DNA from: Humulus lupulus
Taxonomy: Eukaryota > Streptophyta > Magnoliopsida > Rosales > Cannabaceae
Assembly: GCF_963169125.1 (NCBI RefSeq)
Contig: NC_084798.1
Coordinates: forward strand, 168,545,980-168,609,979
Direction of reading: 5' to 3'
DNA: 64,000 bases
The notes under the pieces were generated by a model, which ran no database searches, was not told where the DNA came from, and worked only from the letters and a program-made list of their open reading frames with translations. This document shows, in pieces, positions 3,693 through 41,515 of this stretch. Within the stretch, counting starts at the first letter, position 1. Every line of letters begins with the position of its first letter. The position numbers were made by a program, and so were the translations under genes.

Positions 3693-5155
<1,463 letters not shown>

Positions 5156-7472: not shown

Positions 7473-7673
7473 TACAATTTTAAAAAAAAAAATTAATTAA
7501 TTAAATTCATTAAATTTTATTTAATAAAATATTAAATATTAATTAAATAATAAAAACAATTTAACAATATCCATAGTCTCCAAAATGTAAGATAACAAAA
7601 CATAAGTAGTATTGTCTCCAAAATAAATAAAAACACAAAATATTAATAAGTTCAAAATAATAATATAATAAAA

Positions 7674-9292: not shown

Positions 9293-9489
9293 ATCTTTGC
9301 AGTTTAAATAATTATTAGCTTAAAATCAGTTATAGTTGGAGAATAATTACATAACTTAAATAATTTCGGTAATGTATTTGAAACTATTGAAATACAAATA
9401 TTGTTGAGAAAAGTCATATATTGATTGAAAAGTCTTGAAATTTAAACTTACACATTAAACATACAAATATGAATATGCATAAGAAAATA

Positions 9490-11676
9490 TTATTCCTCAT
9501 CAATGTCAATTCCTACATCATCATCTGTATCTTCTAAATCATCTTCACTAATTTCGTCATCATCATCGTCATTGATGAAATCATCATCCACATCCGGAAC
9601 AGATCGAGACGTTTCCCCACTTATGCTAGTGTGACTAGGTCGACCCAAATGCATAATCTCCAACTCTCCTAATTCTACATTGAGTACAAAATTTGATGCA
9701 GTGCTATCATGCATGACATCAACCTCGTTATCATCATCAATACTTGGATGATCCCAGATCTTTCGATGATTGAATTCTTCTACTACCTTCCAATTTTTCT
9801 TTCTTGAAGGATCTTCCAAGTAGAAAACTTGGTTTGCTTGAGTGGCAAGAATAAACTGATCGTTCTTGTACCATTCAGAATTAATCATGATACTAGTTAT
9901 GTTATTCTCAGTCACACTTTGACTCTTGCTTGCATCGGTGATAAACCATTTGTATCGAAACAATACCACAGAGTAACCATGGGAATAGCATAACTCTACA
10001 ATCTCCTCAAGTTGGCCATAGAAAGTGAAACCATCGGTTCCTGGCACCGAAACTCCACTATTTTGAGTGGTACATCTTTCGTCATGACTATGGACCAAAA
10101 ACTTCACACTGTTAACAATGCCATTCGTGTAGGAGTATGCATTCTGATTGGACCTGTTTGCTAAAGAAAATAATTCATCAGTACACTCAGGTGATTGCAC
10201 TTGTCGCAAATGACCCATCTATAGAGTATGACACAAAAAAAAGAAAACACAATGAGATGAGTATTAATCGATACAAATTTCGTAAGAATTCTACAGTTTC
10301 GATAATTTATCTTCAATTTAAACCAGCTAGGGAAATCATTTTGAAGATTTATGTTTGAATTTTCTCGAAAGCATTCACTATATAGCACAAGGATTAAGGT
10401 AAGATAACATTTTGTCATGAATTAAATTTAATGAATTAATATATGTGTTGAGCTACTTACTCCATATATGGTTGGATTTCAGGGAAATTGTTGAGAACAA
10501 ACCATTCTGCTTCTTTTTGATGAAGATAGTCAAGGGATATGATTTTCTTTTTGCTACTTGAATGACATTGTTATTCAAAAACTGACAACTGTCTTTTAGG
10601 AATAACAATATCCTCATTTCTTTTTGGACGATTAAATTTAGTCTGTACGACTTGAAGATATTGCGAACAAAAAGTCAAAGCTTCATCGACAACATAACCC
10701 TCCGCTATAGAACCTTCAGGGCGCGCCTTATTCCTGACATAATTTTTCAACTTCTTCATACATTGCTCAAACGAATACATCCACCTCATGTAAACTGGTC
10801 CTCCCAGGATAGCTTCTTGCGGTAAATGAAGAGTTAAATGAATCATTATGTAAAAAAAGGCTGGAGGAAAAATCAACTCCAACTTTCACAAAATTTGTAT
10901 CACTTGATCTTCTACATTCTCCATGTCCTTAACAACCAATGTACAAGCACAAATTTGCTTAAAGAAATTGAAAAGTTCAATGATTGTCTTCGAAATAGAC
11001 TTATCCAAGTAGCCTTGAACTCCTACCGGCAACAGACTTTGCATAAGAATGTGACAATCATGGGATTTCAACCCAACAATGTTGCCATCACTGTCAGTTA
11101 CTTTCTTAAAGAAATTTGAACTGAAGCCATCAGGAAGTCTAACTCCTTTTATGAACTGACAAAAAAACCGTCTATCATCCGGTGTGAAAGAGTACATAGG
11201 ATGTGCATCATCTTCGCCAAGAAGTTCAAGGAAGACAACCAAGTACAATCAAGGTATAACTCAGCTTCGACCTCTTTAAACAGGTCATTAAATTGATTCT
11301 TCAAACTATTTCCACCACCATCTGAAATTCCTTCATTTACGTCTTCTTCGTTAGTGTCTTGTTCACCAATAACATCATTGATGATGTCAATCATCTCATC
11401 AGTCACTGGAGCCCCGTCGTCCACTACTGGAGGCATATCAACTTCACCGTGGTAGGTCCACTTCACGTATCGATGTAGAAACTCATATCTGTGTATGTGA
11501 ACCTCCACCACATCCAATTTCTGATTCAGCATATTGACACACTAAACGTATGGACATTTGACTTCTCTCAAAGCATTTACATGATTCTTGGCCATTTGTA
11601 TAAATGCTTGAAGACCATTCCAAAACTCATCAGAGTAACATCTTCTATTAGTTTTCCAACTCTTGCCAATCGTCAT
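9490..11676 (-). pseudogene. TNPD-like CACTA transposase, catalytic core deleted
   Basis: Reading from ATG at 11676: a transposase-associated domain (CY-DEFWNGLQAF, AKNHVNALREVKCPY, then HRYVKWTYHGE) interrupted by a TAG near 11553, an acidic linker, then ELYLDCTWLSSLNFLAKMMH. After that the frame passes straight to DDRRFFCQFIKGVRLPDGFS and GLKSHDCHILMQSLLPVG, and on to a DUF4218 region (MELIFPPAFFYIMIHL, RWMYSFEQCMKKLKNYVRNKARPEGS, 10882-10571). The last exon (10218-9490) is DUF4216 (VHSHDERCTTQNSGV, FYGQLEEIVELCY, VLFRYKWF) with a long acidic tail. The several hundred residues of the TNP2 transposase core that normally sit between the first domain and DUF4218 are missing, at about 11240. 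The gene therefore cannot encode an active transposase. Confidence 0.8.
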
Positions 11677-11679
11677 AAC

Positions 11680-12800
11680 TGATTCAAGTGGAAAATAAAT
11701 TATCACAATGTGATAATCATAAAAAAAAACTACCTTTATTTGCTAATAATTTTATGAAATTTTATGAATATATATTATCAAAATTTATGAATATATATTA
11801 TTGCTAGTTATGAATGTATTATAAAGTTTCATTATACAATCAAATATTTAATTATAATTATTATTATGTTATTTAATAATTATAAAATTCTTAATATAAT
11901 TTTTTCACTTTTTATTTTTTTTAAAATAACAATAAAGTTTTATACTTGTAAAATTATTATTTTAATTTACACTTTATAATTTTTTTAATTAATTTTTATT
12001 AGTTGCTTTAAAATTTATTAATTAAAATTTTTAATCACACTACTTTGTAATACTTTATTTTTCTAAATCTACAAAAGTTCGGCAACATAACGACTGTAAT
12101 CTAGCATATCCCAAAATTTAAAATCTGCATAAAAACATATAAACCAGTCCCAAAATATACATAAAATTTAATACAATCATTTGAATTCATAAATAAACAA
12201 TAAAAAAATATTATAAACATACTCACAAATCAACATATTATTTATATAACCTAATTTATATATAATTCAAAACAAAAATTTTATTTAACCTAACATATAT
12301 ATAATTGAAAACAAAAAATTATAATAAACATCTAATCATATTAATCTAACCTACCACATAATTTAAAAATAAATTTCACATTCACATTTATATACATATA
12401 AACATATTCACATAATCACATTTATATACATATATTTAACCTACCATACATTTTTTTATAACATAACATTTAATTAAATTAAATTAACATAAAACAAAAT
12501 TAAAAATCACAAATATAATTAAATTAACAATACAAATTCCTAAAATGAAAAAAAAATTCAACACTATCTAAAATAAGCAATTACACAATTAAAAACATAA
12601 TTTAACCATTAATCAATCACAAAATATTTAAAAAAAAAATTACCCAAGGCTCTGGCTAGGGGATTATCCAAAGGCAAAGGTTCGGGATGGTGATCCAATA
12701 CCCAAATCTGAAAAAGAAAACAAAAAAAAAATGTCAAAACTCATTTCCACCAAATACAAAATACACACATATATTAAGAAAAAAATACATAATAAATGAT
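11680..12800. other. AT-rich interior of CACTA 1
   Basis: Extremely AT-rich, low-complexity DNA (many TTTATAT and ATTAAAAT runs) upstream of the transposase genes. I see no coding potential. Around 12643-12710 a slightly GC-richer patch with splice-like AG and GT sites could be an untranslated exon. Confidence 0.5.
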
Positions 12801-12959
12801 ATAATAGCAAGATAGTGGGTTTAGACTACCGAAACATGGGAGAAAGTGGCCAAAATTGGGTTGGGCGGTGTTGGACAGCTTTGGGAGGTAGAGAAAAATA
12901 AAGATTTCTCTGTTTTTTTTTTTTGAAGAAAACAGAGGAGAATGAGGAAGAAGGCCTCT

Positions 12960-13765
12960 GCCTGGGGATTATATCGTTGTGGCCTATATCGACGACATGT
13001 CATCGCTATAGGTAATGACAAGTCATCACTGATATCAAACGCACTGTTTTACTCAAACAAAAATACACTACAGCGACAACATGCCGTCGCTGTCAGATAG
13101 TGAATAGTACACATATCCTCTCGTGTGCTACCCGTCTACTCTACAGCAACGACATGCCGTCACTCTAGGCAATGAAAATTTGACTTAAATTTTTTGGTGG
13201 TTCGCTTTCCCACATTTTTTTTGTCCTATTGCGACAACATGTTGTCACGATAGAGTACAAAATGACTGACCAGTGGATTAAATTGGATTCTATAGCGACG
13301 ACTAGGAATGAAAAATAGGCAACCAACTCTTGGCGGTTAAGTTTCCTCCCTGTCCTACAGTGACGACATGTCGTCGCTCTAGAATAACATATTTCCCTCC
13401 TTTTTTTCCACGATGACTCTATAGCAACGACAAGTCGTTGCTATAGGGGTGCACATAGGCAACCAACTCTGGGCGGTTTGAGTTCCCTGAGCATCCTACA
13501 GCAACGATAGGTCATCGCTATAGACAAACATATTTCCCTCCCTTTTTTTGACGAAAACCCTACAGCGACGACATGTCGTCGCCGTATAGTCACTTCTCGC
13601 CTCATGTTCCTACCAAATTCCTGATACCCTACAGTGATGACGCGTCGTCATTGTAGGGTACCAGGAATTTGGAGGACCTAATCGTGTGTTGTTGACAACC
13701 CTACGGTGACGACGACCTTGGAGTCGTCACAATAGATGTCATCCCTATAGAGTCTTTTTCTTGTA
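12960..13765. repeat. CACTA 1 right subterminal palindromic repeats
   Basis: More than ten copies of the CTACAGCGACGACATGTCGT / CGTCGCTGTAGG unit, in both orientations, spaced by 60-100 bases. Good copies lie near 13360-13380, 13560-13590 and 13630-13660. Density is higher than at the left end. Immediately left of it (12820-12960) is a GC-richer block that probably holds the element's promoter and leader. Confidence 0.8.
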
Positions 13766-14138
13766 GTAGGGTCCTAGGGGGAGTGAGCTTGGTCCTCATG
13801 TCTCCTCCCTCTCTTCAAAGCAACTCTTGGGCGCTGGCGTCTTTTTTGGCTTTCCTTATCATTTATCTATGCTGACATTAGTTGCTTAGTAAACAATAAA
13901 CTCCATGGAGGCTTGAGATCGCCCCCAAGCCCTAGGGAGGCTTGAGCTCGGCCCCAAGCCCTAGAGAGGCTTGAGCTCACCCCCAAGCTCTAGGGAAGCT
14001 TGAGCTTGTCCCCCAAGCCCTAGAGAGGCTTGTGCTTGCCCCCTAGCTCCAGGAAGGTTCGAGTTTGATCCCGAGGCTTTCCTATCTCTTGGGACTCCTC
14101 TTGGGTGCTTTAGTTGATGTGGAATTTGGACATCCACA

Positions 14139-16120: not shown

Positions 16121-17100
16121 CCCAAGTGGTTGATGGGATCTATCTTGCCAAGCACTTTGTTTTTTGTTCTCTCATATACTCTTTGAAAATTCCAACTGAC
16201 AATGACAGTATGTGCGTCATATAAGTGTTCTTGGAGATGAGATATGTAATATATAAGATAGGTGTTTGACATTAGTAATAGTAGACAATGTGCAAGAGTA
16301 AGCACAATGTCATTTTCATATTACATCTTGGAGTCAGCTTGGCGACCTCTTTGGATCCTATCAAGATAAATTACATCTATCGAAAGCCAACTATGCTGAA
16401 ACTTTTGATTCCTTACGAGGCATAACTCAAATAATGAAAAAATACGACTACTACTTTATGGGGGCCAATTGAGATGACTTCTTTGGTTCCTAAGCAACTC
16501 AAATAAAGGGAGTCTTATCAGAGGTTATCCATGATGAATCCCACTAGCTTCTCCTTGAAGCCTTCTTGTAGACCTCTTCCAATATTCAACTTGATCAACG
16601 ACTTCCCTATCACAACGATCTCTTCTACTCAGAGTCTTCAGACGTATTGGTAAAATGATAATTGGAGGAAGGTTTGATTTCCCTAACATGCAAGTTCTGG
16701 TATTTGCAAGTTTTGGATAATGGAAGTTCCTTGGATATAACATTCCCTTTTTTTTTTTTACCATTTTTCTTTTATACATAAGGAATTTGCATTCCGGTAT
16801 TATTTTTTTATTTAAGTGCCTCCAAATTAGCAAAATCAAAATCATTTGTACTTATCTCTTAACACATGATTAGTTGTAAAACTAATGAAAATTAATTACA
16901 TGACCGTGTATTGGTTTGAGTATATGTTCAACAAAGATTTGACTTCGATTCATGTCAATAAAAAAACTTTGACTTCGAGTTGATAAGTGGGACAAGCCAA
17001 ATAAAAATGATGTGAATGATTTTTTTTTTGATATTTAGTTATTAACGTAAAAATAATTAACTTTGTTAAATAAAAGAATGACTTAATAATAATCAACCTA
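16121..17100. other. Spacer between minisatellite and CACTA 2
   Basis: AT-rich DNA inside the LTR element. No frame with recognisable domains. The last three bases, CTA at 17098-17100, form the left copy of the suspected target duplication of the next element. Confidence 0.5.
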
Positions 17101-17780
17101 CACTACAAGAAAAAATGCTTTTAATAACACTGAAAATGTGTTATCAAAACATACGATAACACTTTCTGATGTGTTAAGACCGACTATGTTATCGTAGGTC
17201 AGGGTACTTTACATAACACTTTATCAGTGTTATACAGATGTGTTATTGTACTGTCAACAATAACACACTTTCTGTGTTATTTTAATATATAGATAAGTGT
17301 TTAATTATGTTATTTATAGTCGATTATATAACACATTTCAATACTTATAAATTGGTGTTATACTACACTTTAGTATAACACTTTTTTGTGTTATACTACA
17401 CTTTAGTATAACACATTTTTTGTGTTATACTAAAAAGTATCGCTGCCCAGAGACAGTCCCCCATCCAACACTAAAGCAAAGAGCAAAGAGTAGTCCCTGT
17501 GGGGCAACCAGCCAGCAAAGGATCCGGGGTTTTCATTGACCAGCGATCAGAAAGCGGTCAAAGTCAGGTCAGACCGAGCTGGTTGAGCAGCAGGAGGAGA
17601 ATCGGTCTAATCTCAGGGAAACCACAGTCGGAGTCATAAGGAAAGTAACACATTATTTGTGTTATACTACACTTTAGTATAACACATTATTTATGTTATA
17701 TAATGAAGTTTGCATAACACAATTCTTTGCATAAAAAGTGTTATTGTAATAGATATTATAACACAATTTTTGTATTATTT
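17101..17780. repeat. CACTA 2 left subterminal repeats (TGTGTTAT / ATAACACA)
   Basis: TGTGTTAT or its complement occurs well over a dozen times, in pairs forming hairpins such as TAGTATAACACATTTTTTGT with GTTATACTA. The longer word ATACTACACTTTAGTATAACAC is repeated at about 17358-17380, 17391-17413 and 17662-17684. The array is interrupted at about 17446-17645 by an unrelated GC-richer block. Confidence 0.75.
17446..17645. other. GC-richer block inside the subterminal array
   Basis: About 200 bases (CGCTGCCCAGAGACAGTCCC at the left to CCACAGTCGGAGTCATAAGG at the right) break the AT-rich repeat array of CACTA 2. Composition and word use differ sharply from both sides, and the same TAACAC repeat resumes afterwards. 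It is probably a captured or inserted piece. I do not recognise it and see no clean open frame through its whole length. Confidence 0.5.
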
Positions 17781-17789
17781 TAATATTTT

Positions 17790-19257
17790 GATAAGTTTAA
17801 ATTCTCATTATATATTTCATTTATTTATCACTAATTTATTCTATTATATTTTAATTTTTTTATATAATTAAAATTAACTTTCTAATATATACTAGCATCA
17901 TCAAATGAACTTGATTTTCAAATAACAAAAAGTAAAAACATTCAACATTGTATTAACAATCCACAAATTAGTTTAAAACATTCAACATTGTCATCAACAA
18001 CAAAAATTTCTTTAAGTATTCAAGTAGTCTTAAATCTTCAACATATTGAAAAGTTACTACTTTCAGCACAAAATATTCTACTGCTGCCCAACACAAAGCC
18101 TTCAAAATTAAGTATCATTTTCTATTTCGCTTGTCACATCTGCAAAATAAACAAAAAAAATATTTTATTGTTATTATCTAGCATCACAAATTACTTCAAG
18201 AAAAATGTTACGGAAATTATTTCCAAGAAAGGACACCACATACAAAAGATAATCACAAATGTAAAGCCAAGGACAATAAAAAATGCGAATACAAAAGCAC
18301 TGGAAATTCCTTCTGATTTCTCTTTTCCAAAAAAAGAAAAATTTCTACCAAACTTTATAATGTATTTCCAAACTAAAAAAAGTCAAGGACCCAATTTAAT
18401 TGAACACAGAAATCAAATCCCTTTTATAAAGAATAAACTAAGCAACATTGATGATATAATTGTTTCACAAGTACTATTTTTCTCTACTGTATGCACACAA
18501 AGCTTGATTAATTAATAGTAAGAAATCAATTATATAGAAAGCTCAACCAATGATATATACATACAATGAGTTTTCTAAATATTGAATGTTCAGCTACGTA
18601 CCTACAGCTTCTGTTTGTTTTGATAGGGTGCTGAAAGAGGTTAGATTTGGGCACCTTGGCTTAGATAATATTGCAGCAGTGACTAATTTAAAGAGACTGA
18701 GAATTGGACTATCTCTACCATCTTGAGAATGTAATACTTCCCCATCAGCACTGGGAAGTAAACCCAGCCAAGGGGCTATTTACATGAAGTGCCAGGTATC
18801 TACTTCTCTCTGTTCAGCATCTGAGATAGCAACAATAAGATTCAAGTGGCCAGAAACACTTTTTTCAACTTTAACTAACCAATTAGATGATATACATCAT
18901 GATTCAGGCATCTCCAGTTCATTTTGAAGACTTCAGTAAAATTATAGCAAAAGCAAGGACACCGGCAACCTTAATTTTATAAACAAACTCTAAAGAAAAG
19001 TCCTCAAGTTCAAGTATAAAGACATCATGTACCTGCCACACCTCCATAAAAAGGAAGCAATCTAATGGACTTTGGCAATGATTCTTGCAATCCAGTGATC
19101 ATTGGTTCAAGTGTTGATAGCTGAAGCAAGCAGGAAGAGATCATTATGCTAAATAAAAGATATCAAGAGCTACGTTAGATTTAAATAAATATTTTAATAT
19201 AATGCCATGTAACCATAACATCACCAAACTAAAGTTCAACACCACAGAAAGAAATAC
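17790..19257. other. CACTA 2 interior, no identified gene
   Basis: AT-rich DNA. The frame at 17988-18515 is long but of very biased composition and shows no domain. At 18625-18720 a plus-strand stretch (GHLGLDNIAAVTNLKRLRIG) looks like a piece of real coding sequence, possibly leucine-rich, but it is short and I cannot assign it. Confidence 0.4.
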
Positions 19258-20095
19258 CTGCTGCCGCCGTGAAGTTGAGAACCGAACCAGCCAGCCCTGC
19301 GCCCAGCCACCGTCCCTACCGAGCCCCTCCCTATACATCATTAAAACACGAACTTGTTCCACTTTATGAGCTTCCAATACTTCGAGTTTGCTCCTTTCAA
19401 GATCACTTTAAAATTTTGTGATACTCTCAGATTTTGTTTCAATAGCTCCCAATATGTCTTCCATCTGCTTTTGCACATCTTCAAAAGCTGCACCAGCAGC
19501 TCTCTGGGAGTATAAATTATAAGGCAAATGGTTATCTATTAAAGTGTCAATATGAATATAGATAGTGCATGCTATATACAGAATAATTGATACAAAAAAA
19601 AAAAACAGTGGTACAAAGCCATATCCGACAATAGTATAATATATATTTATATATAAATTAATATAGTACAAACAAAAAACACATGTATTTCAACAAATAT
19701 ATATATTTATTAATATGAAACTGAAAACTCAAAACCATAGATGAGATTTTGAGAGACGCACAGAGAAGAAGAACATGACAGCTGGTAGGGCACTTGTTCT
19801 TGCTTATGGTTGGCAACAAAGAAAAATAGAGACTAAGAAAGTTGTATATGGTTCCAATCCAAGCATTTAAAAATTAACAGAAAGAAATATAGGCAGAATA
19901 CTGCTAGTAATATCATCAGAAATGACAAATGATACTACTTCAAGGGTAAAAAAAAAATAACATAACATTCAAAAAATGCACCTCTGTTTCATTGGCTGGC
20001 GAGCATTGTAAACTGAAATCCATTGTGTCGCTGGAACACCTAGATGAACCTTCTTCCTTGGTTGCCCATCATCATCTTCTGCAATATTCAATCTA
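19258..20095 (-). pseudogene. Two-exon gene fragment, predicted coiled coil, unidentified
   Basis: One exon lies at 19503-19258 with an AG acceptor and GT donor; a preceding exon ends with a GT donor after 19982. The two join in frame through ANETE to RAAGAAFEDVQKQMEDILG. The product is a charged heptad-type helix (ESITKF, stop, SDLERSKLEVLEAHKVEQVRV), then a Gly/Arg-rich part. The in-frame TAA near 19406 sits where a Glu or Gln would be expected in the helix, so the copy is dead. I do not recognise the parent gene. The kept introns show it was copied from genomic DNA. Confidence 0.5.
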
Positions 20096-20099
20096 CCCC

Positions 20100-21715
20100 A
20101 TTTTTGTCCAACTTGGCTAATAATCTAACAATAATTACATTGAAATAAGAGCATAAATAAGGTATAATTAATAAGCATGTGTTAAAGTAATTAACAAATA
20201 CAAACTAAGCACTGAGCAGTGTACACTTTTGTATTGAATTGAATGAATACAGAATACAAGTGGCACCAATATATACATGCCACAAAGAAGAATCAAGAAA
20301 AGTAAGATACAGTTCTATACTTAAATAAACTATATGTTTCAACTAATTTAGGGATATAAGGTCCAGTACTAAGCTCAAAATTACTCTCAATAACTTAACT
20401 AAACTAACCGATTTAACTATATTATATATATATATAAGGTCTAGTGCTAAGATTAAAGTATGTGCTATACTTACTAATGGTGACTTTGTACTGTACAGGC
20501 ATTACAGTCTCAGACTCCAAATGAAACTCTAAAAGCTCTAAGCTAGAGTATAAACAGTCAACTAGAAAATATTGAAGAAAGACATTTTCCCAAGTTAACA
20601 GTTAGAAAAAGAATATTATTACATACCAACCAGTTATCCATGAGGCAAATGGTGACCACACACTTTATCTACCTCATACCAGCCAGCCAGCCAGATATCT
20701 TTCTCTTTCTCTTCAAAATTTTATTTCTGCCTCATAGAAACCTTCCACACACTTCACAGATTAGATAGAAAATTCATTTCTTATCTTCTCCTAAAAAAAA
20801 GCTAAAAAATTGTTATTGTTAAATACAAAGTTTGTAATAAAGATCAGATCAGGCTACAAAAACAGTGCCAGTCCTTGAGGTTTTGCTAGGAGTAGAGTCC
20901 TTATTGGTCTATGTTTAATAGAGGGATCTGCTACTCATTTTTCAGTTCTTTTGTTTTGCTTCATCAAACTCAATTTGCTCTTGTTTTTCTTTCTTTTTGC
21001 TTGAGCAAAACATGCATGAGAGTTAATAACCATATATATATTACCTTTATTAGTTATATTCAAAGGTATCATGTAGAGTTATTAATGACCGAATATTACT
21101 TGTGTATTCCACAAATACTCTACATGGCTATCTATCTAAATGGAATTTTAACAAATTTGACCATATATTATAAACAAGGTAGCAGACAAAAGTGAAAGAA
21201 AAACAAATGAATAAACTTAAACAGTACACAAATAGAAAACATTCAAACTCAGATTTAGAGCATTGATCTCTTTCATATTTATAGAATACCAATAAAGCAA
21301 CAACAAATGACATGATAACACCAGTTATATACACATATCAAGAAAAATGCTCTGTATGTGCATGTTAAAAAATTCCCATCCAATTCACACAAACCATGTC
21401 TTATGGTCGATTCTAAAATATATTCACAAGAACAATGCATCTGTTCTGTTCAAAATTTCCAGGTATGCTTAAAAATATCTATATTGTACGTGTCTTCAAA
21501 ATCAGTATTTTCTTTAAGTTCTATTCGGTTTCAAATGAATTTTAATGTTATGCCATGAATGTTGGCTAACCCTCAATGGTAATTGTTACTTTGTTAGAAT
21601 AAAAACTTGTCAATTTCTTTATAGACCATATACTTCTTGGATTTGCAAGGTCAAAATATTACTCAGCTAAAATATTACATTAATAGAGGAATGAAGTAAG
21701 GGTAGAGACTCTTAC
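20100..21715. other. CACTA 2 interior, AT-rich
   Basis: No supported coding region. CCAGCCAGCCAGCCAG near 20678 is a short simple repeat. The short frames here have low-complexity composition and are probably chance. Confidence 0.45.
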
Positions 21716-21981
21716 CATAAAATGCTCTCCACTTGCAAATGTAAAAGCCAATTAAAATCATCCCATAAGTTAATCCATTCAAAATAGCTATAATTATCAA
21801 TGCTCTCTTCACCTTAAGATCAGCTCTTTCTTTTCCTAAATAAATTTTTGGAGCAAGAAAAGAAAATATTAATGAATTAATATAGAAGGAAGGGAATTTG
21901 AACTTGATAAGGAACTAAAATTTTCAACCTGTAATCTGTACCAGTTGTTTTTCAAGAATGACCTCTCTCTTGTGTCCAACA
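21716..21981 (-). pseudogene. Two-exon fragment of an unidentified membrane protein gene
   Basis: Exon 21981-21929 (53 bases) and exon 21835-21716 (120 bases) have intact AG acceptors and GT donors and matching phases. They read VGHKREVILEKQLVQIT, then GKERADLKVKR and a single clear membrane helix (ALIIIAILNGLTYGMILIGF), ending CKWRAFY. No stop interrupts the joined frame. The pattern, a charged helix, one transmembrane segment and a short basic tail, suggests an internal part of a membrane-anchored protein. I cannot name the family. It lies within the group of same-strand captured exons. Confidence 0.55.
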
Positions 21982-22506
21982 CTACAATCAGTAAAAAAAA
22001 AAAAATCAGTGGAAATAGATCAATCACAACAATCGGGGAATAGAAAACGCATAATATAAAGGTGAATACAGCAAGGTCAAGCTCTATTAAATATATCTTC
22101 GATTGTATATTTAGGAAGGCACCACTAATCAGTAAATAACTAACTTCATGAGCTCTAACACCAATGAAATTGTATACATTTAAGTTCTTTGCAATAAGAA
22201 TCATATCAACAAAAACCACAGAAAGAATCATATCAACAAAACCAGAAAACTCATAATAGAACATAAGATACTGAGAGAAACATATACCAAGTGTTAGCAA
22301 TTGTTCTTGAACATAGCTTTTTAACATATGGATACTTATTAAAACCCTCATTTACTTCTGGCCTAATGATTGAGATCACATCTATACAAAATAAAAAATA
22401 CTAACTATATGCTCAAACCAAGAAACAAGTAAAATAAAAAATTATCCAACTGTTAATTCTTAATATTCAAACATCATATTCTAATTTCAAGAAGATTCAT
22501 ACTAAC

Positions 22507-22645
22507 CAGGACATATTGGAAGCACTACAATTGACATTCCAACAAATGCCAAGGCAACAGTCCGCCCAGCCAGCTCTTCAAGACCATCTGTTAAATTAAC
22601 TCTGTTTCCCATAGAAACAAGACAAAATGAGGTCAACCAGTACCC
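22507..22645 (-). pseudogene. Exon fragment of a MraY homologue (phospho-N-acetylmuramoyl-pentapeptide-transferase)
   Basis: The frame reads [20 protein letters not shown] then [14 protein letters not shown] and [13 protein letters not shown], ending in a GT donor after 22507. Plant nuclear MraY homologues, plastid proteins related to the bacterial peptidoglycan lipid I synthase, carry NLTDGLDGLAGGTAALAF at this place. The conserved Asp-Gly of GLDGL is replaced by Glu-Glu and the following Gly-Gly by Gly-Arg, so this copy has lost conserved active-site-region residues. An in-frame stop lies just upstream of GYW, so the left limit is approximate. Confidence 0.75.
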
Positions 22646-23566
22646 ATTTTATTCAGGGAACAAAACAAGCTATCAAATGAGACAGAGATGAAAATTTTGA
22701 TACTTCTCCTACCATAATTCTTGGAGTGAAAATATGTTGAAACTTTCGGTTTTAGTATTTAAAACTAATAGCTGAAGTATTTTAGTATTTAACCAAGCTA
22801 GTTTTTATTAATTTCTAGTTCCAGCTATTAACCCAAAAGATTATATACACATATAAATATATTAAGCAAAAGTTGTAAATATGAGCAGAAAAAAATTCTG
22901 AGACATATATGTCATTAGCAAGACAGAACATAGTGTTTCCTGAGTAGAATATGTGTGCATATACACATATACAGACATATGTATTTTTATCTCCCATTTC
23001 TAATTTAATTAAATAAAATCTGATTTAATGTCAACTATTGCTTATTTTTTTCAAATATTTTCAACATTGAGTTTTTAAAAATAAAAACACCAATATTATT
23101 ACAAAAATGTATAGAGAGGCTTTGTAAGGGTTTTCTCATTGTATTTTGTAGGGGTTCTAAGTGAAGTAAGATTGCTTGTTTTTTTTTCCTGGGATTGATT
23201 TTTAAGTGTCTTCAAACTCAATATTTCCATAGTTTCTTATTTAGATAACTATTGATAAACATGACTTGTATATATTATTTATGTCTTAATAATACAATGG
23301 CTTCAGTTTTATCATGTTTTGACTCTTTCTTGTTAACTAAAGTTTAGATGAGCTACATGTACCACAAGAATAAGACTAAAAAAATAAGACCACAAAAACA
23401 AATCAATAAATAACAAGAACAAATAATGAGAAGTAAGAAAGATACATGGCTAATGGATTTAGAATATCATCCCTATACATGCCATCCCTTGTAAACCACT
23501 AAGGCAAGTTGAGTAGAAAGAAGGGAAAACATACACACACACAGAGTAGGGCAGAGATATTCTTAC

Positions 23567-23647
23567 AATAGGATGTGCCAGCAGCTCGCCAAAGTTGTAG
23601 ATATTATCCCCAAGCAGTACTGAAAGTGATAAACCAAATGCCAAGTC
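23567..23647 (-). pseudogene. RPN9 (26S proteasome lid subunit) exon, downstream fragment
   Basis: An 81-base exon with AG acceptor and GT donor reads DLAFGLSLSVLLGDNIYNFG and ends GELLAHPI. GDNIYNFGELLAHPI is the hallmark of RPN9/PSMD13, a non-ATPase lid subunit of the proteasome. It continues in phase 0 from the exon at 25060-24936. Within the stretch, AFGLSLSVLL differs from the common AFDLSLAALL. The following exons of RPN9 were not found. Confidence 0.85.
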
Positions 23648-23779
23648 CTAAAAAATTGTACAAAAAAATCAAAATACTGAAACTAACAGCCAAAACAGCT
23701 GGAAAAGTTTAATGCATGTTGTTGGTCAAACAAAATTTCTATAAAGAGGCTCCAATTTAGAGAATACATTTTAAAAAAA

Positions 23780-23905
23780 TATGAATTTATTCTTTTGCCA
23801 GCTAGCCATAAATTAACCTTGTATGATTGTATCACAAGATTCACAATACAAGAAGACCACATAAGTTTATTCTTTTGCCAGCTGGCCATAAATTAACCTT
23901 TTAAA
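23780..23905. repeat. Short direct repeat around RPN9 intron
   Basis: TTTATTCTTTTGCCAGCTAG followed by CCATAAATTAACCTT occurs at about 23787-23821 and, with one difference, at about 23866-23900. The two copies of about 35 bases are 79 bases apart, a small tandem-type duplication. Confidence 0.7.
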
Positions 23906-24467
23906 CTATTTTAATTTCCTATCAGTCACTAACTCCAACGTGATATATTAGTGTTAATTAGTTTTTAGAAACTTAATACTTTGTTACTTTTAAAAATATG
24001 TCTTATTGTTTTGATAACATTCGTAGCCTCATTACTTTAGTAATTTATTATTTTAATTTTACTTATATTTTAGTAACTTTAATATTTTCGAAAAGGTAAC
24101 TTATTATTTCAGTTACTCTTTAGTAACTTATTGTATCCACTACTTTTCAAAACCAAATATGTAATAGATAAATATTAACTTATCCACCTGACTGGCTATG
24201 TAAGCAGAAAAGAAAAACAAACAGAGTGATATGTCCAAAAGTAAAAAAATATAAACACATTTTCATTACTTCAAAAGCGTTATTGTACAGTTTGGTAAAA
24301 GATATATACTGTAGAAAACATGAAGAAGAAGAAACTATATAGATCATCCTAGTTTCTACACAAAACAATAACATAAAGAAAGATTATAACATAAAAACAC
24401 AGTGAACTCAACAAAGCCTTTAAAACTTCCTCATCTCATTTAAGAGGAATATGATTAATTCCTGAGA

Positions 24468-24661
24468 CTATTGCAAAGCATTTAAAATTGAATAAATAAA
24501 GTCCAAGAAGCCTGTTCCCTTAAGAATATCTTTACTAGTCAATAGCTCAAAATCCAACAACAGCAAGAACCCAATTACAGCTGCCTTCCCATTTATAATC
24601 TCATTCTTCCCTATGAAACCAAATCCTCCTGAGCTCTCATCAACTACCATCCTTACCTATC
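24468..24661 (-). pseudogene. Last exon of a light-harvesting-like (LHC-like / LIL or stress-enhanced) protein gene
   Basis: After an AG acceptor the frame reads FGFIGKNEIINGKAAVIGF, continues LLLLDFELLT, then GTGFLDFIYSILNALQ and stop. NEIINGKAAVIGFLLLLDFE matches the conserved chlorophyll-binding helix of the LHC superfamily (E..NG.AA.IGF), as in one- and two-helix plastid thylakoid proteins. Only this terminal exon is present. It sits between the two RPN9 exons on the same strand, which is not a natural arrangement for either gene. Which LIL or SEP member it came from is not clear. Confidence 0.6.
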
Positions 24662-24935
24662 AAGCACACCAGAATTGATGATTATAGTAGCCTATATATA
24701 TATATAGACTATGTATAAATCTTATCAAATATGTAACAGTTAAAAATTCCAGCATTTTTTGTAATTATTTAGCATGATAGCTTATGTATTTGATATTATA
24801 TCTATAGTCTAGAAGCCATTTTACAAAATATCATCAAAACATACCAGTTTACAAGATAATGTTACAAAAATATGTATATTCCCAAAAGATGTTGATGCTT
24901 ATATGTACATTAACTTAACATGAAGTAACACTTAC

Positions 24936-25060
24936 CAGCTTAAATGATTCTGACAGAGATTCCACTAAGGTATACGCTAAGTAAAGAAGAGCACTTTTGT
25001 AGAACTCAGCAAATTCTTGACGAAATTTATGGTATTGATAAGAAACCCAATAATAAATGG
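24936..25060 (-). pseudogene. RPN9 (26S proteasome lid subunit) exon, upstream fragment
   Basis: A 125-base exon with AG acceptor (…GGCTAG) and GT donor (…CTG/GTAAGT) reads YYWVSYQYHKFRQEFAEFY then KSALLYLAYTLVESLSESFKL. The QEFAEFYKSALLYLAYT block is highly typical of RPN9/PSMD13. Its end phase fits the exon at 23647-23567, so the two are consecutive exons of one gene. The intron between them has been enlarged or invaded, since an exon of another gene lies inside it. No stop is seen in either exon. Confidence 0.85.
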
Positions 25061-25449
25061 CTAGCCAACCGAGAACCCAAATAAATATTTTCATATAACA
25101 AATAAATACAAGAGGGCATATATATTCTCATATAACAAAAACAGAGTAATAAATCAAATGAAAATTTTAAAATTTTAATGACACCAATTGATTCAGCTAT
25201 TTAGGTGCACCAGTAAGTAATCTATTTTTCATAGATTTACTTATGTTTTGCAAGTTAACGTATTTCACAAAATCAAAATTGAAGGTGCTTGAATGAAAAT
25301 AAAAAAACATGTAAAAGCTTGAATTTGACACTGTTTCTGATCCAATGTTTGAGGACTAAAATGCCAATGTGAGTGAAATTTTGATTTAGACAGAACAACC
25401 AACTCTTATTCCTACTTCAAAGTCACAAGGGAAAAGAAAGTCTGTGTAC

Positions 25450-25530
25450 CATCCTGAGTCATGAGTGGATAATCAGCAGCACTTAATGTGATAAACCAGT
25501 TCCAATCTGCATTAATCTTGAGAAACAACG
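25450..25530 (-). pseudogene. Exon of a GlcAT14-type beta-glucuronosyltransferase gene
   Basis: An 81-base exon with AG acceptor (CTGCAG) and GT donor reads ALFLKINADWNWF and continues ITLSAADYPLMTQD. DWNWFITLSAADYPLMTQD corresponds to the DWDWFINLSASDYPLVTQDD block of plant GT14 enzymes, Golgi beta-glucuronosyltransferases that act on arabinogalactan proteins (core-2/I-branching family). The match is strong over the short length; Asn for Asp and Ala for Ser are the main changes. No neighbouring GT14 exon was found. Confidence 0.8.
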
Positions 25531-25976
25531 CTGCAGCATAACAGATAAACCAGTCACTTTTCAAATAAATACCCTCACTCTCAACATTTCTCTATAGTAA
25601 TTATTTGAAGTATTATAAACACATATATACCATATCATAACTTAAATATCTGATAAAATATGATGCTTGATCATGATCTAGCTACATATTTCATTGAGAC
25701 AGATCATTTCAGTTATATCTTAATCTACCACATAAATTAAATTTCTACAAAATATTTGTCTATACAAGGTTGCTGATATAATAATATTTGTGTAAAATAC
25801 AATTGAGAATTGAGATACACTTTTGTCCTTTATTATTGTTATTAAATAAAAGCTAGAGCCTAGACGGCCAGAACCTTCCAAATTATTTTAATATTTGTGT
25901 GTGTGTGTATAAACCCATTTGTAAAGAAAGGTGAAAGCTCATACTTGAGAGAGGAAATTCCATCAATATTTTTGTA

Positions 25977-26162
25977 ATGGAAATCATAGAGTTCCATGAA
26001 CCAGAGCCAAACCACAATAATGGGCATGTGGCAGCCATCTTTGGGGTCACCGGGGTTGTGGGGAGGGAGCTGGCAAGAAGGCTCACATCAAAATCTGAAT
26101 GGAAAAAGGTTTATGGAATTTCCCGGAATCCTCCTCATCTTGAGCATTACCAACAGCACTAA
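25977..26162 (+). pseudogene. 5' coding piece of a PRISE-type (progesterone 5-beta-reductase / iridoid synthase-like) reductase
   Basis: From ATG at 25977 the frame gives an acidic leader then [19 protein letters not shown], a Rossmann GxxGxxG nucleotide-binding loop, and [20 protein letters not shown], with a stop at 26160-26162. This combination is typical of the start of short-chain reductases of the PRISE group, which reduce activated C=C bonds with NADPH. Family members are about 390 aa, so this is only the first sixth. It lies on the plus strand, opposite to the other captured exons. Confidence 0.7.
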
Positions 26163-26917
26163 ACTAAATGCAAATCCTAGAATATGATTCAAATGCAAAT
26201 GCAAATACCAACACAGTAATATGATTCAAAGAAGAAGAAAATCAGATCTAAACATTTATTTTAATAAAGATAAATCTAATTAATATATACATATATCAAA
26301 CTACCTCTCTCCCTTTCTTCTCGACCCTTTCTCTACAAATTAACCAACCCTCAAACTTCAACCTAGCTCTAAGCTTCAAACCCAGCCCTGTTTCCAGCCT
26401 CGCATCGTCGACCACACCACATCCCCATCGCCAGCCATGCGTTGTTGAGCATGTCGAGCCTCCGCATCGCCAAGTCCCCAGAAGCCTTCGTCAGTACACC
26501 ATACCTTACTGAGAGCATTAGGGCTTCGTCGAGGAGGGAGAGAGAGGCAGAGGAATGAAAGTGATGAAAGAGAGGGGGGTCGAGGCGAAAGAGTGCCGTG
26601 GAGATGAAGAGAAAGAAAGTGAATGAGAACTGAAGAGGTGGAAGAGTGGAAGAGAAAGTAGTGTATATCTAGAAAGAGAAGATGGAGATGGAGAGAAACA
26701 AAGGCTATGATGGAGTCGGGCAAAGTGTTTTTGGTGAGAGAAAAGAATGAGGAGAGATAATTAATTTTTTTTCAATTGCCGCTTAAAATTTTTAGTTTCC
26801 CACCTTTCATTTTCAGAAATCCAATTTTACCCTTTTTGTTTCTAATATGACTTATTATAATACTTTTTTAATAAGCTTTATATTCATATGTTGTGGAAAG
26901 GGTAATTTGTTGTAGTG
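26163..26917. other. Right arm of CACTA 2, including a GC-richer leader-like block
   Basis: 26330-26740 is GC-richer than its surroundings, pyrimidine-rich at its left and rich in GAGAGAG/GAAGAG on the right. It may be the promoter and leader that drive minus-strand transcription through the captured exons. 26760-26917 is AT-rich and ends at the terminal repeat. The ATAACAC repeats of the left arm are absent here. Confidence 0.4.
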
Positions 26918-26920
26918 CTA

Positions 26921-28322
26921 CCAAATTTCGTGTTTATATATGTAAATTATCATTTGGTTTGATATTAGCAAATTTTAGCAATGCCAAGTAGAGGTGTACA
27001 AATGACTTTACCATTTTAATGGAAGTTGACTAAAAATATAATTAGAAAGTGGGTTGGGGCGATTCATGCAAAACGTTGAAGAGATGGGTGACAAGGCCTT
27101 GTCACCTAAATTTTTTTTTTTAATACACTATATTACTTGGTGTTAGTTTTTTTTTTTAATTTTTTAAAAAAAAAAGTTCGCTACATTTTTTTGTTTGTAT
27201 TATTTGTATTTTTAATTGTATGTAATTGCATCATATATATTTTTTCTATTTAGATATCATTAATTTAATAAACAAAAATTATTATATATGTTAGTATAAT
27301 TCTATTTTTTAAAATGAGCTTTTTTTTACTTATAAATTTTGACTCTGGAACATAATATAAATTTTCCATTTAGATGTAACTGAAAAAATAAACGTGAGAA
27401 AATATATATGTATGAAGATGAAATATATTATAACAAAAAAAAAAAATAGAGTACATAAGTTAGGAAAAAGGTAATGGGCAATTGTTTGGAAGAGAATGTT
27501 AGAATAGACAATGAAATTAATGTTTAGAAAGGTAGATGGAAAGTGATTTACATAATAGAAAGGAAGGTATGATATTTAATTTTTGTCTTTTTTTTTTTGG
27601 GTAAAATTTGTTTGTAATTTGGTTGGTTTTCAATTCAAACTTAAGAAGACAATGAAAAGTCATTTTCTGCATTTTTGTACACAATCTAATGGCGTAGATA
27701 TGGGTGGTCAGAAATCTGTACCACCACTCAACTGATCACGTACCATACATTTATTTTCATTTATTTATTTTTAAGGAATGTAATGCACCATAGAATTTAA
27801 CGAAACTGCTTTTATGAGTTTTGTTTTTTAAGGAGGAAAAACAGTAATAACAGTAACAGAGAAAAAATATCTGAATACACATAACATAACAGAATTTGTA
27901 CCTTAATAGTTGAGACCAGATATAGACATGCGGACGACCAAAGAAAACTAGGATAGCAATCACTCCACATATAATACGAGGTTCTTTTTAAATATAATAT
28001 AATATATATTATTACTATAAAATAAAATAAAATAAATACATATGTAAGTATATATGAATTAGAGATATTATTATTTACGATGAGGAGTGAAGTTAAGTGT
28101 ACATGTTATGATTCACTTGTGGTTGTAGGGGCTAGAGACATGGATTAGGACGTGGAGACAAATAATCATGTAATGTAAACAAATTAGTTACTTATATATT
28201 TGTGTCCAAAAACAGTTACTTTTCAGATTGGTGCTTGCAAATCTCAAAATATTATATCTATCGATCGATCTATCTATATAGTAGTGGCCTGCCTTAGTTG
28301 GCTCTTTTCTCTCTCTCCAAAG
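26921..28322. other. Interior of the LTR element right of CACTA 2
   Basis: AT-rich DNA without a recognisable gene. Just before the right LTR there is a pyrimidine-rich run (CTCTTTTCTCTCTCTCCAAAG) and, at 28258-28275, a short ATCT/ATCG simple repeat. No primer-binding site with clear tRNA match was found. Confidence 0.5.
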
Positions 28323-29486
28323 TGTTGACGGTAAGTAATCATCAACCAAGTTAAATTGGAAAACTTTTGATCTTAAAAGTAAATGAAGAGCTGGGAAGAA
28401 ACTTAGAAGAACTTAGGATAGCTATCTAAACATAGAATCAAGTTGCAGAGTGAAAATGAAGAGAATATTTGTATCACTCAAGAATTTCTGGTTACAACAA
28501 TACATCATTTTCTCGGGTCCTATTTATAGGGGAGCTCTAATGGCACTTAGTACAAGTTCCAAGGGGACAAAGAGGTAGCTGTATGATAGGGCACCTCAAA
28601 GGATCATGGAGTAGGCATTAGTGGTGTCGGGCTCCAAGTTTGTCGGGCATGACATTTTTCAGAGGTGTGGGAGGAGTGTGCCTCCTCTTAGTACTTTGTA
28701 CGACCATTACTCCTGACTTATGTACGACAACTACTCTTCTGATGGTCGTGTCTGGTTCATACTCCGTACTACTTGGACCTTTTTCGTACAACCCATGCCT
28801 TATTAAGTCCTTAAGAGCTTAAGTGCAAGAAATTTAAAGCTCGAGGTTGAGGAGGAACATTTATAGCTCCAGGCTATAGGGACTCTCTGAGCTTATTTCC
28901 TTTCAAGCTTGGTGATGGCCTTAAGTTGGTATTCCAAGTTTGTTGAGCCCTCCAAATCATCTCCTTGGCTTCTAGGGAGTCTTGCACACGTTTCATGGTC
29001 CGGGGAGGGGTTGAACCTGTGCTTGGGCTTCAGGGGGGGCCCTGAGCTTGCCCCCTAGGGGAGCTCACCACCTGAGCTCGCCCGTGGGGTCCTTAGGGTT
29101 GTGAGCTTGGTCCTCATGTCTCCTCCATCTCTTTAAAGCAACTCTTGGGCGTTGGCATCTTGTTTGGCTTCTCTTGTCATTTCTCCATAGTCACATTAGT
29201 TGCTTAGTAAACAATAAACTCCATGAGGCTTGAGATTGCCCCCAAGCCCTAGGGAGTCTTGAGCTTGCCCCCAAGCTCTAGGGAAGCTTGAGCTCGCCCC
29301 TCAAGCTCTAGAGAGGCTTGAGATAGCCCCCCAAGCCCTAGGGAGGCTTGAGCTCGCCCCCAAGCTCTAGGGAGGCTTGAGCTCGCCCCCATTCTCTAGG
29401 AAGTTGCGAATTTGATCCCCGAGCTTTTCCTATCTCTTGGGACTCCTCTTGCGTGCTTTACTTGATGTGGAATTTTGACATCCACA
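28323..29486 (-). repeat. Right LTR (uninterrupted copy)
   Basis: About 1.16 kb starting TGTTGACGGTAAG and ending GACATCCACA. It aligns along its length with 6189-7029 plus 13769-14138, with scattered substitutions and small gaps. Minus-strand TATA motif CTATAAATAG at 28529-28520. At 29225-29420 the word AGGCTTGAGCTCGCCCCCAA repeats about six times, matching a similar array in the left copy. Confidence 0.75.
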
Positions 29487-30477: not shown

Positions 30478-30499
30478 CACTACAACAAAAATGAGTTTT

Positions 30500-30890
30500 A
30501 GGGGCAACGCATGTCGCCCCTAATAACCCGAAAAGTCGCCTCTGATTAGTCGCCCGTGGAAAAATTTCACTGAAGGGTACATTAGGGGCGACTCGAAAGT
30601 CGCCCCTGATATTTGAATATGTCGCCCCTAAAAGTTGAAATGTCGCCTCAAAAATTTGAAAATTTTGAATTATTTTTTTGATATGTCGCCCCTGATACTC
30701 TATTAGTCGCCCCTAATACTATACTATGTCGCCCTAAATGGTTGCACGTGGCATATTATCAGGGGCGACAATGTCGCCCCTAATACTTAATTATTAGGGG
30801 CGACACGTCGCCCCTAATACTATACTCTGTCGCCCCAAATGGTTGCACGTGACATATTATCAGGGGGCAACAATGTCGCCCCTAATACTA
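30500..30890. repeat. CACTA 3 left subterminal repeats (GGGGCGAC)
   Basis: About fifteen copies of GGGGCGAC or its complement GTCGCCCCT, often as inverted pairs such as AGGGGCGACAATGTCGCCCC. A longer unit with GGTTGCACGTG.CATATTATC is present twice (about 30738-30760 and 30838-30862). The right end of the element has the same core words. Confidence 0.85.
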
Positions 30891-30899
30891 TTTTATTTA

Positions 30900-31904
30900 T
30901 AAAAAAAATAATAAAATTAATTAATTAAATACAATTTTAAATAATTATTTATCGAAATTATTATTTAAAATTTAAATAATTGAAAACAAATATATTAAAA
31001 ATAAAAATATTATATTAAATATTCAAATTAGTTTATTAAAATAACAATTGTACATATTCATAATACATTAACATAGCAAATATTCTTATTGTTCATAAAA
31101 TTTAACAATAATTAATAATAAAATAAACCTAGTCTCCTAAATCAGTTGCCTCGTCGTCCTCCCTATTGTCTCAGCTTCATCTCTCTTCCCAGATTCACAG
31201 ACCCAATCTTCAGGGACCTAGTGCTTTATTTTTCTTCCCATGCAATAACTGAAAACAGAGAGATATAATAATCATTTATGATTGATTATTATCAATACTT
31301 GTATCATCACACACACTCAAAAAGACATGGAAAAAATATATATGAAAGTTAGAAGCAATAAACACGTGCAGAAGAATATCTTCATGTTGAAAACAAGAGC
31401 ATCATAGAGTTGCAGCACACCATAGCTTACAAACATGAAATTTAGAATCATTGTTCTGAGCTAATGTATTAGCAAGCATACGACTTTGAACAAAGCCAGG
31501 AAACATAATAAGATGACAACAACTAACAAGCCAAATATTCTAGTCTCTAAGTAAATTAGATGATAAAAAGTCATCTTTGTTTACAAAAAGAATGGTGAAA
31601 CTACAATCATGACTACATCCAATGATTACAGTCCTTACAAAAAGAAGTTTGGTTGTTTCTTTCAAGCCAACGTTTCCAGCAAATCAAATAGCTACATCCA
31701 CATAAAAAAAACCATAACTTAGTTAAAAGTCCAATAGTCCATAACCACAAATCAATTTAGCTAGTGAATCCATCAATTCAATTTTTGTTAACTAATTTTG
31801 CGTTGTTTAATCTGCTATATATGTTCATCTTCTTGACATAACAGATGATATGTGTGTGTGTATAAATGGCTTCTATAACTAATAAACGTATTTATGATGT
31901 TTAG
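30900..31904. other. CACTA 3 interior left of the captured gene
   Basis: AT-rich DNA. Around 31138-31265 a short GC-richer patch (CGTCGTCCTCCCTATTG) might be the end of a minus-strand element gene, but it is broken by stops. The part just before 31905 is intron of the captured gene, with a proper AG acceptor. Confidence 0.4.
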
Positions 31905-32631
31905 GTAGACCTAGGCATTGCTATTCAAAAGGCCTGTGAGAACCTTACACAACCATTCAAGTTTTTATATCCTTTGGATATCAATATCAAAGACAAAATT
32001 GAGGCTATAGCAAGATCATATGGTGCCAGTGGTGTTGTATACTCAAAACAGGTAAGCTTCTACAACATTTTCATATCATGTAAATCTTTTTGATTTAAGA
32101 ATTGCTGTTCAAAGATTAATTAATAATGGATGTGAGAACCCAAACAAACATGATTTCAGAAAGTTCTATTTAAGAATGAAACAATGTTTTGTTAAGAACA
32201 AAACTTCTGAATGAAAGAGAAGGTTTGTGATGTTGTGTTATTCTACAAATTTTCCTAGTGATATAATATACTGAGTGAATAAAAAATGTGATTGTAGATG
32301 AAGTTCATGGCAAAGTTTACATGTTTAACTCATGAAATAAACTTTTCTTTTGCCTAAATAGGCAGAGAAACAGATTGAGATGTACAGCAGGCAAGGGTTT
32401 TCAAGTCTGCCCATCTGCATGGCCAAGACTCAGTATTCACACAATGCAGCTGAGAAGGGAGCCCCTAGCAGCTTTGTCCTACCAATAAGGGATGTGAGGG
32501 CTAGTATTGGGGTTGGATTCATATACCCTTTGGTGGGAACAATGAGTACAATTCCAGGACTTCCTACAAGGCCATGCTTCTACGAAATCGATCTCGACAC
32601 CACTACTGGAAAGGTTATTGGTCTCTCTTGA
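31905..32631 (+). pseudogene. Formate-tetrahydrofolate ligase, last two exons captured
   Basis: Exon 31905-32051 (AG before, GT after) reads VDLGIAIQKACENLTQPFKF and IEAIARSYGASGV; exon 32362-32631 reads [20 protein letters not shown] through [19 protein letters not shown] to VIGLS and stop. This is the C-terminus of 10-formyl-THF synthetase, the cytosolic one-carbon enzyme of about 635 aa. Only about 138 residues are present. In the second exon [12 protein letters not shown] lacks two residues (Phe-Ser) that I expect after TQYS from other plant enzymes, consistent with a 6-base deletion. The intron is kept and both splice sites are intact. No ATP-binding part is present, so no enzyme can be made. 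Confidence 0.85.
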
Positions 32632-33577
32632 ACAAGGCCTCTATACTTTGGCCAAAGTTTGGATCAAGGGCAGACTTTTCATTACCATGGTTTGATGGTT
32701 TTGCTAAAATTTTATCATGCCATATTCCATCTGTATTGGATAACTAAACATATTTTTTTTTTCAAATAAAAGAAGCATGTTAAATTTGAGTCTTGAATGC
32801 TTATAAATAAGCTTAATCATGAACATTTTTGAAAGGTTTAAGTTAACTGTATAACTGCATTCCTTTTTGTTTTGTTTATGAATGACCTAACCTAAATAAT
32901 AAATTAGATTTATTAATTGGTCCAAGAAAAAATGAGAGCCAAAAATAGATAGAAAAAAAGGTTGTGCTAGTGATAGTCAGAAGCTGATATGAGTAATAGC
33001 ATTACTGCTAAATGCCAATAGATAAATTCTCAAAGAAACATACTTTCTGTTATTTTCACTAATGATGAGTTGGTTCAATTTAATATAATATATAACATAG
33101 ATTAAGATAAACTAAATATTTGTATTGTTAAAAAAGTCTAATAGAGTAATAGACTAATCTAATACAACACAAATCAATTCTAAGTCCACAACATAATAGA
33201 GAAATCACACCAAAAAGTCCAAATTGCATAGTCTAAATATCTAATAAGTCTAAAAGGAAAATTCAAATTCAAACAAGAAGGTAGAAAATAAAGCCCAAAC
33301 CAAAATCCAACATTCATGGTGATATCAATTTCCCATGACCACCCGTGCCAAAGACAAAGCAAATGGATACATGAATAAATAATAATGTATGAGATAATAT
33401 CATATTAAGGGAAATATATAATGTTAATTGAAATACAACTCTAAGAATTAAGTTGCTTGTTACCTTGAAATTAATTTCCCATGAAGAACAAGACATTAAT
33501 TCCAAACAAGTAAAATAAAGATAGTTCTGATTTTTTTTTACTAAAAACACAAGACATTAAATCAAAACAAGTAAAAT
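32632..33577. other. 3' flank of the captured gene and tandem-duplicated DNA
   Basis: The first part is probably the 3' untranslated region of the ligase gene. At 33491-33540 and 33552-33600 a 61-base unit (AGACATTAAT..AAACAAGTAAAATAAAGATA) is repeated in tandem. The LINE inserted in the second unit, and a third copy lies beyond it at 38494-38540. Confidence 0.6.
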
Positions 33578-33580
33578 AAA

Positions 33581-33592
33581 GATAGTTTTGAA
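33581..33592 (+). repeat. LINE target-site duplication, left copy
   Basis: GATAGTTTTGAA, extendable to AAAGATAGTTTTGAA, occurs directly before the LINE and again directly after its poly(A) at 38464-38475 (with AAA contributed by the poly(A) run). The perfect match indicates a recent insertion. Confidence 0.85.
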
Positions 33593-33640
33593 AAACATAC
33601 TACAACTAAAAGGCGTGTGTAGTGCTCTGGCTTCTCTCCG

Positions 33641-34879: not shown

Positions 34880-34991
34880 GGGAAAGGGAAGATGCATAGG
34901 CCTGGGATTGCTAAGAAGCAGAATGCATTTAAAGTTCTTCAAGAGCAAGTGATAGGTGGTCCGAGTGGGCATTTAGATGACTTGAATCTAG

Positions 34992-38369: not shown

Positions 38370-38475
38370 TGCTTTTGTTCCCTTCTGTTTGAGGGGTTGG
38401 TTTGTAATTCGGTTGTGATTAATAAAGATTGTTTCTTTCTTGATTAAAAAAAAAAAAAAAAAAGATAGTTTTGAA

Positions 38476-39170: not shown

Positions 39171-39179
39171 GATATTTAG

Positions 39180-40665: not shown

Positions 40666-40667
40666 CC

Positions 40668-40765: not shown

Positions 40766-40769
40766 GTTG

Positions 40770-41340: not shown

Positions 41341-41344
41341 ATGT

Positions 41345-41505: not shown

Positions 41506-41515
41506 GATTGCCCGC

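Follow-up and report, generated by a model that had tools for sequence, protein, structure and literature searches.

The 64,000-nt stretch of Humulus lupulus DNA analysed here (the window) contains a 9,817-bp segment, positions 17101–26917, which has the ends of a CACTA-type DNA transposon and holds fragments resembling exons of seven gene families. The segment begins with CACTACAA (CACTACAAG.. from 17101) and closes with ..TTGTAGTG at 26917. The left terminal inverted repeat (CACTACAAGAAAAAATGCTT, 17101–17120, plus strand) and the right one (CACTACAACAAATTACCCTT in its minus-strand reading, 26898–26917) both start with CACTA, are identical in their first eight bases (8/8) and agree at 15 of 20 positions in a terminal comparison. 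Immediately outside them, two copies of the trinucleotide CTA (17098–17100 and 26918–26920, neither assigned to a strand) can be read directly as a 3-bp target-site duplication (TSD); CACTA termini and a duplication of this length are both found in the CACTA superfamily. These CACTA-like ends and the CTA duplication bounding 9.8 kb are exactly as given in a first-pass annotation of the same DNA.

The window holds 1287 CACTA..TAGTG pairs spaced 0.4–25 kb apart, 30 of which have equal 3-bp flanks. Within this set of 30, exact identity at the termini extends furthest in the 17101/26917 pair (8 bases), and no other pair reaches 15/20. When the flanks are ignored, five other pairs in the window score 15 or 16 of 20; the similarity of the termini is therefore not decisive by itself. 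In windows simulated with a Markov-1 model, an 8-bp pair with equal flanks arose in 2/300 and in 50/10,066 cases, and such a pair with a match of at least 15/20 as well arose in 0/10,066. Searching for the exact left-end pattern returned 0 matches in the viral and 0 in the prokaryote contig collections, a result that is uninformative for plants.

The left arm carries a dense array of ATAACAC/GTGTTAT motifs (17124–17790, not assigned to a strand), with 19 of the 31 copies present across the window lying within 17101–17801. By comparison, the biggest cluster of this motif in the 10,066 simulated windows amounted to 4 copies per 700 bp. The cluster resembles the subterminal array of a CACTA element. 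Members of that superfamily characteristically, albeit not as a strict requirement, have arrays of short repeats next to the termini of both arms. A GC-richer piece of ~200 bp (~17440–17640) breaks up the array, with a GC content of 0.54 vs 0.26 and 0.19 alongside, and one frame of this piece returned no Pfam match. On the right arm, a CT-rich stretch resembling a leader precedes a short reading frame (26290–26770, minus strand). As judged from the sequence only, this region represents a possible promoter and 5′ leader; three of its frames gave no Pfam match.

In keeping with the first-pass annotation, which reported no transposase, six-frame Pfam scans of 17101–26917 (stops read as X) detected no transposase domain. 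As a control, three minus frames of a second CACTA-type element in the window (element A, 7030–13768) returned Transpos_assoc, DUF4218, DUF4216 and a sub-cut-off Transposase_24. Since the same kind of scan finds four domains in element A, comparable genes would have been seen. No TNPD/TNPA transposase genes are recognised in the 9.8-kb segment, which is expected for a non-autonomous member of the CACTA superfamily.

Seven families are represented between the two ends: RPN9, MraY, a GlcAT14-type enzyme (Branch), an LHC/PsbS-like protein, a PRISE-like protein, DUF7477 and FragX_IP/PIR. The matches to RPN9, DUF7477 and Branch exceed curated cut-offs, while those to MraY, LHC/PsbS-like, FragX_IP and PRISE-like are weaker. 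All exons lie on the minus strand except the PRISE-like piece, which lies on the plus strand. The first-pass annotation had proposed exons of at least five unrelated families inside the CACTA-like borders, most of them on one strand, and this is borne out, with the tally now standing at seven, one of which (PRISE-like) is weak. Each of the exons that it named, i.e. those of RPN9 (two exons), MraY and the GlcAT14-type, LHC-like and PRISE-type proteins, was found. The interior thus holds fragments from several unrelated host genes, as do Pack-CACTA elements.

Read from the right arm along the minus strand, the first of these is the GlcAT14-type exon (25450–25530), which has AG/GT borders and matches the Branch family (PF02485, the plant members of which we take to be GlcAT14) with an E value of 1.8e-6; its match in PDB was xylosyltransferase 1 (E value 0.009). 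RPN9 (PSMD13) is represented by exon a (24936–25060, minus strand), which ends in a GTAAGT donor and has an upstream boundary placed by eye at CTAG, and exon b (23567–23647, minus strand), which has AG/GT borders. Joined, the two exons match PF22037 with an E value of 3.1e-24, and each was also found singly in the six-frame scan (exon a alone, 2e-6). The top PDB chain for the joined exons was 8amz_O ('PCI domain-containing protein'; E value 9e-33, 59/67 aligned residues identical), and yeast RPN9 was matched at 1.3e-12.

Between the two RPN9 exons lies an LHC/PsbS-like last exon (24468–24656, minus strand), preceded by AG and with a stop at its end, a placement that the first-pass annotation missed. 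It is assigned through PDB matches to PsbS (4ri2; E value 4.6e-6 summed over two repeats) and HliD (8.2e-5), and it has no Pfam match. We had first sought the LHC-like label in exon e5b (described below), which was ruled out when the LHC-like exon was found at 24468–24656. The interval between the RPN9 exons also contains a 43-bp direct duplication (23781–23823 and 23861–23903, 91% identical).

The MraY exon (22507–22601, minus strand, AG/GT borders) matches TIGR00445 (3.6e-7) and PF00953 (2.3e-4). The former scores 30 bits, the whole-protein cut-off being 192; the latter is likewise below its cut-off, and the match to MraY in PDB has an E value of 0.04. Next come exons e5a (21929–21981) and e5b (21716–21835), both on the minus strand with AG/GT borders. 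The phase of e5a fits that of e5b across a 93-bp intron, and the two probably come from one gene. No Pfam match was obtained for e5b; the PDB matches of the e5 exons, six of them to designed SAKe6 proteins (5e-6 to 6e-4) and one to a cytochrome (0.4), were all short and zero-stretch, and we treated them as chance. The first-pass annotation had also counted two or more unidentified genes; exons now assigned to DUF7477 (1.6e-15) and FragX_IP (3.1e-5) are among these.

The DUF7477 exon (19982–20116, minus strand, AG/GT borders) matches PF24289, the plant members of which are presumably casein-kinase-I-like, and was recovered in the six-frame scan at 4e-13. Two further exons belong to the PIR/CYFIP family (FragX_IP, PF05994, the plant members of which we assume to be PIR). 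Exon a (19033–19120, minus strand) has AG/GT borders and an E value of 0.044 alone; exon b (18602–18809, minus strand) has a GTACGT donor, an upstream boundary placed by eye at AG and an in-frame TAA. Joined, they score 22.5 bits, just under the curated cut-off of 23.3, and they follow the order of the profile (598–629, then 684–735). Exon b scores 10.4 bits (E value 0.14) without the stretch beyond the stop, i.e. upstream of it, and 16.1 bits (E value 0.0027) with it. On account of this rise, exon b probably extends through the in-frame TAA and would represent a decayed copy. The PIR exons found no relative in PDB, where three antibody chains were returned at E values of 0.44–0.64. Between the DUF7477 and PIR exons, an exon-like frame with a stop inside (19330–19503, minus strand) has AG in front and no GT donor at its chosen end, and its family matches are at chance level only (E values 0.1 and 0.14).

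Finally, the PRISE-like (progesterone 5-beta-reductase-like) fragment (25977–26159, plus strand) resembles a first exon that opens with an ATG and is truncated at its other end. Three progesterone 5-beta-reductases in PDB (6el3, 5mlh and 5mlm) were matched with E values of 0.002–0.011; the fourth match up to 0.1 was a designed protein, and the Rossmann matches are weak and sub-cut-off. None of the other six family assignments is as weak as this one.

The pieces searched were picked by eye, mostly from 102 stop-free segments of at least 38 aa, and their E values therefore merit a correction of the order of ~102. An unselected six-frame Pfam scan of the element (E values up to 1, frames of 3,272 residues) listed only PSD13_N (RPN9, in two frames), Branch (2.2e-4, sub-cut-off), DUF7477 and a single, weak Rossmann match (0.06). 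Short exons lose score when diluted in frames of this length, the Branch exon, for example, going from 1.8e-6 to 2.2e-4. In a comparison stretch of equal size (38400–48216), the three minus frames returned no Pfam match and the three plus frames returned hAT-type domains besides two weak matches that stayed under their cut-offs (0.11 and 0.71). No match emerged when the window was scanned for tRNAs and, at the gathering threshold, for Rfam families.

AG before and GT after are present at seven exons (GlcAT14, RPN9b, MraY, e5a, e5b, DUF7477 and PIRa). RPN9a and PIRb end at a GT donor; for the acceptor of each, the nearest upstream AG was chosen by eye. As the boundaries were set at such sites, the splice borders are a description and not an independent test. 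The RPN9 and e5 pairs keep intron-like DNA between their exons, suggesting that the captured material was genomic DNA and not mRNA. When the exons were chained (with RPN9a and PIRb shorter than the coordinates given above, such that the PIRb stop fell outside the chain), the longest ATG-started frame in the 1302-nt chain was 91 aa, mostly PIR. The lack of a single long frame, together with the in-frame stop in the second PIR exon, makes a protein-coding role unlikely, and we rejected the idea of a chimeric protein.

Taken together, these data lead us to regard 17101–26917 as probably a non-autonomous CACTA-like DNA transposon without a recognisable transposase, the interior of which appears to be genomic DNA of about seven unrelated nuclear genes, in the form of exons and parts of the adjoining introns. 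Such an element would move, or would once have moved, by using transposase from an intact CACTA relative at another site in the genome. Element A is not an obvious helper: its subterminal repeats are different (GTCGTCG/CGACGAC, close to either end), and the three minus frames scanned gave no match to Transposase_21. The position of the LHC-like exon between the two RPN9 exons and the inversion of the PRISE-like piece suggest layered capture, and the cargo may have been acquired one piece at a time; the likeliest route would be template switching while breaks or gaps resulting from transposition were being repaired. The CT-rich leader-like stretch of the right arm could drive minus-strand transcription across the exons, which would yield spliced chimeric RNAs with the PRISE-like piece antisense to its donor and all other pieces sense to theirs; given the absence of a long frame in the chained exons, any such RNA is likely non-coding. 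The first-pass annotation had proposed such transcription and, as another possible product, small RNAs against the donor genes. A more daring version of this scheme, which we think improbable, is that of a one-armed CACTA element in which the right array has been wholly replaced by captured DNA, including the promoter-like leader, such that one transcript from the right arm would join exons of six or seven genes, all in sense orientation, to the antisense PRISE-like piece and serve as a source of multi-gene regulatory RNA.

Several observations weigh against a single mobile CACTA-like element with captured exons. Those of MraY, the LHC-like protein and PIR were missing from the unselected scan, the exact terminal match is no longer than 8 bp, and the last 700 bp of the right arm hold 0 of the window's 31 ATAACAC/GTGTTAT motifs. 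With the relaxed motif AACAC/GTGTT, the count is 23 in the left arm and 1 in the right (window mean, 1.6 per 700 bp). Element A and a third, CACTA-like element (element C, 30478–44885) carry their own motifs on both arms, those of element C being GTCGCCCC/GGGGCGAC, whereas 17101–26917 does so on the left only. This one-sided array is a real oddity and the chief ground for caution over the right border, which is weaker than the left because the right arm is without the left arm's subterminal repeats. The same one-sidedness and the shortness of the exact match would suit a composite origin, in which the left arm is the remnant of one CACTA element, the right end derives from another element or from chance, and the scraps between them were gathered by several insertions and repairs and were never mobile as a 9.8-kb unit; the 50 simulated windows with an 8-bp pair and equal flanks also speak for it. 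However, identical CTA flanks and a 15/20 terminal match did not occur together in any simulated window, and the left end of element C likewise starts CACTACAACAAA, showing that such an end exists in this genome. We consider a composite origin unlikely, though it is the alternative to which we give most weight.

Same-strand exon cargo from multiple genes is typical of maize Helitrons, and a Helitron or Pack-MULE nested in a CACTA element could in principle carry the exons. A simple scan for a Helitron 3′ hairpin with CTRR, which would miss divergent ends, placed none of the six such sites in the window inside 17101–26917 (0/6), and we rejected the Helitron on this basis. As for a Pack-MULE, 185 inverted pairs occur in 16800–27200; of the 25 longest, none enclosing the exon region exceeded 34 nt, although divergent ends would again be missed. 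We judge a nested element of either kind very unlikely. A normal host locus, or one gene that has degraded, might account for the splice-type exon borders and their AT-rich, intron-like surroundings, but not readily for several unrelated families with one or two exons each, one of them inside another and one inverted; the families being unrelated and nested, we rejected this explanation, which is the least credible of those considered.

Further features lie elsewhere in the window. Element A, with the terminal inverted repeat TACTACAAGAAAAAGACTCTA and flanks GGA/GGG, interrupts a repeat, an uninterrupted paralogue of which (28323–29486) serves as an empty site. Element C has flanks TTT/TTT and the right end GACTACAAG, and a LINE-like unit encoding an endonuclease and a reverse transcriptase (~33.6–38.4 kb) lies inside it. 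Remains of a hAT transposase are present at 45.0–47.0 kb on the plus strand, comprising Dimer_Tnp_hAT and DUF4371 (a domain that we take to be linked with hAT transposases), the latter split over two frames. At the left of the window, a retrotransposon gag domain (1081–2205, minus strand) is followed by frames of a zinc-binding dehydrogenase-type gene (3693–4837, minus strand), with ADH_zinc_N at 3693–4082 just under its cut-off.

CACTA elements rich in gene fragments are known from soybean, morning glory and Arabidopsis. One of the closest is Tgm-Express1 at the soybean Wp locus, which reportedly packs fragments of five genes into under 6 kb and is said to give rise to alternatively spliced chimeric transcripts. 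The hop element resembles it in its CACTA ends, 3-bp TSD, lack of a transposase and intron-bearing fragments of several unrelated host genes, but differs in holding seven families and the e5 gene in 9.8 kb and in having subterminal repeats on one arm only. Pack-CACTA (Pack-TYPE) elements of Arabidopsis and other plants are similarly non-autonomous CACTA elements with captured chromosomal DNA; however, theirs is mostly one or a few fragments, between matching arms. The Tpn1 family of the Japanese morning glory is also En/Spm-related and has captured host exons together with introns, though from different donors. Gene-fragment Helitrons and Pack-MULEs share with the hop element the shuffling of exons by a transposon, often from several donors on one strand, but in the latter the scans described above showed neither a Helitron 3′ end inside nor a long inverted terminal repeat, and it possesses CACTA ends and a 3-bp TSD instead.

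Elements of this type provide a route for exon shuffling in plant genomes and may yield small RNAs against the genes of their own host. With a cargo as mixed and layered as that found here, the donor junctions could reveal whether capture proceeds by template switching, and the one-sided array, beside two CACTA elements with motifs on both arms, offers a natural test of whether mobility needs both arms. The kind of element is already known, and what distinguishes the hop element from the relatives named above is its larger number of donors and its one-sided subterminal array.

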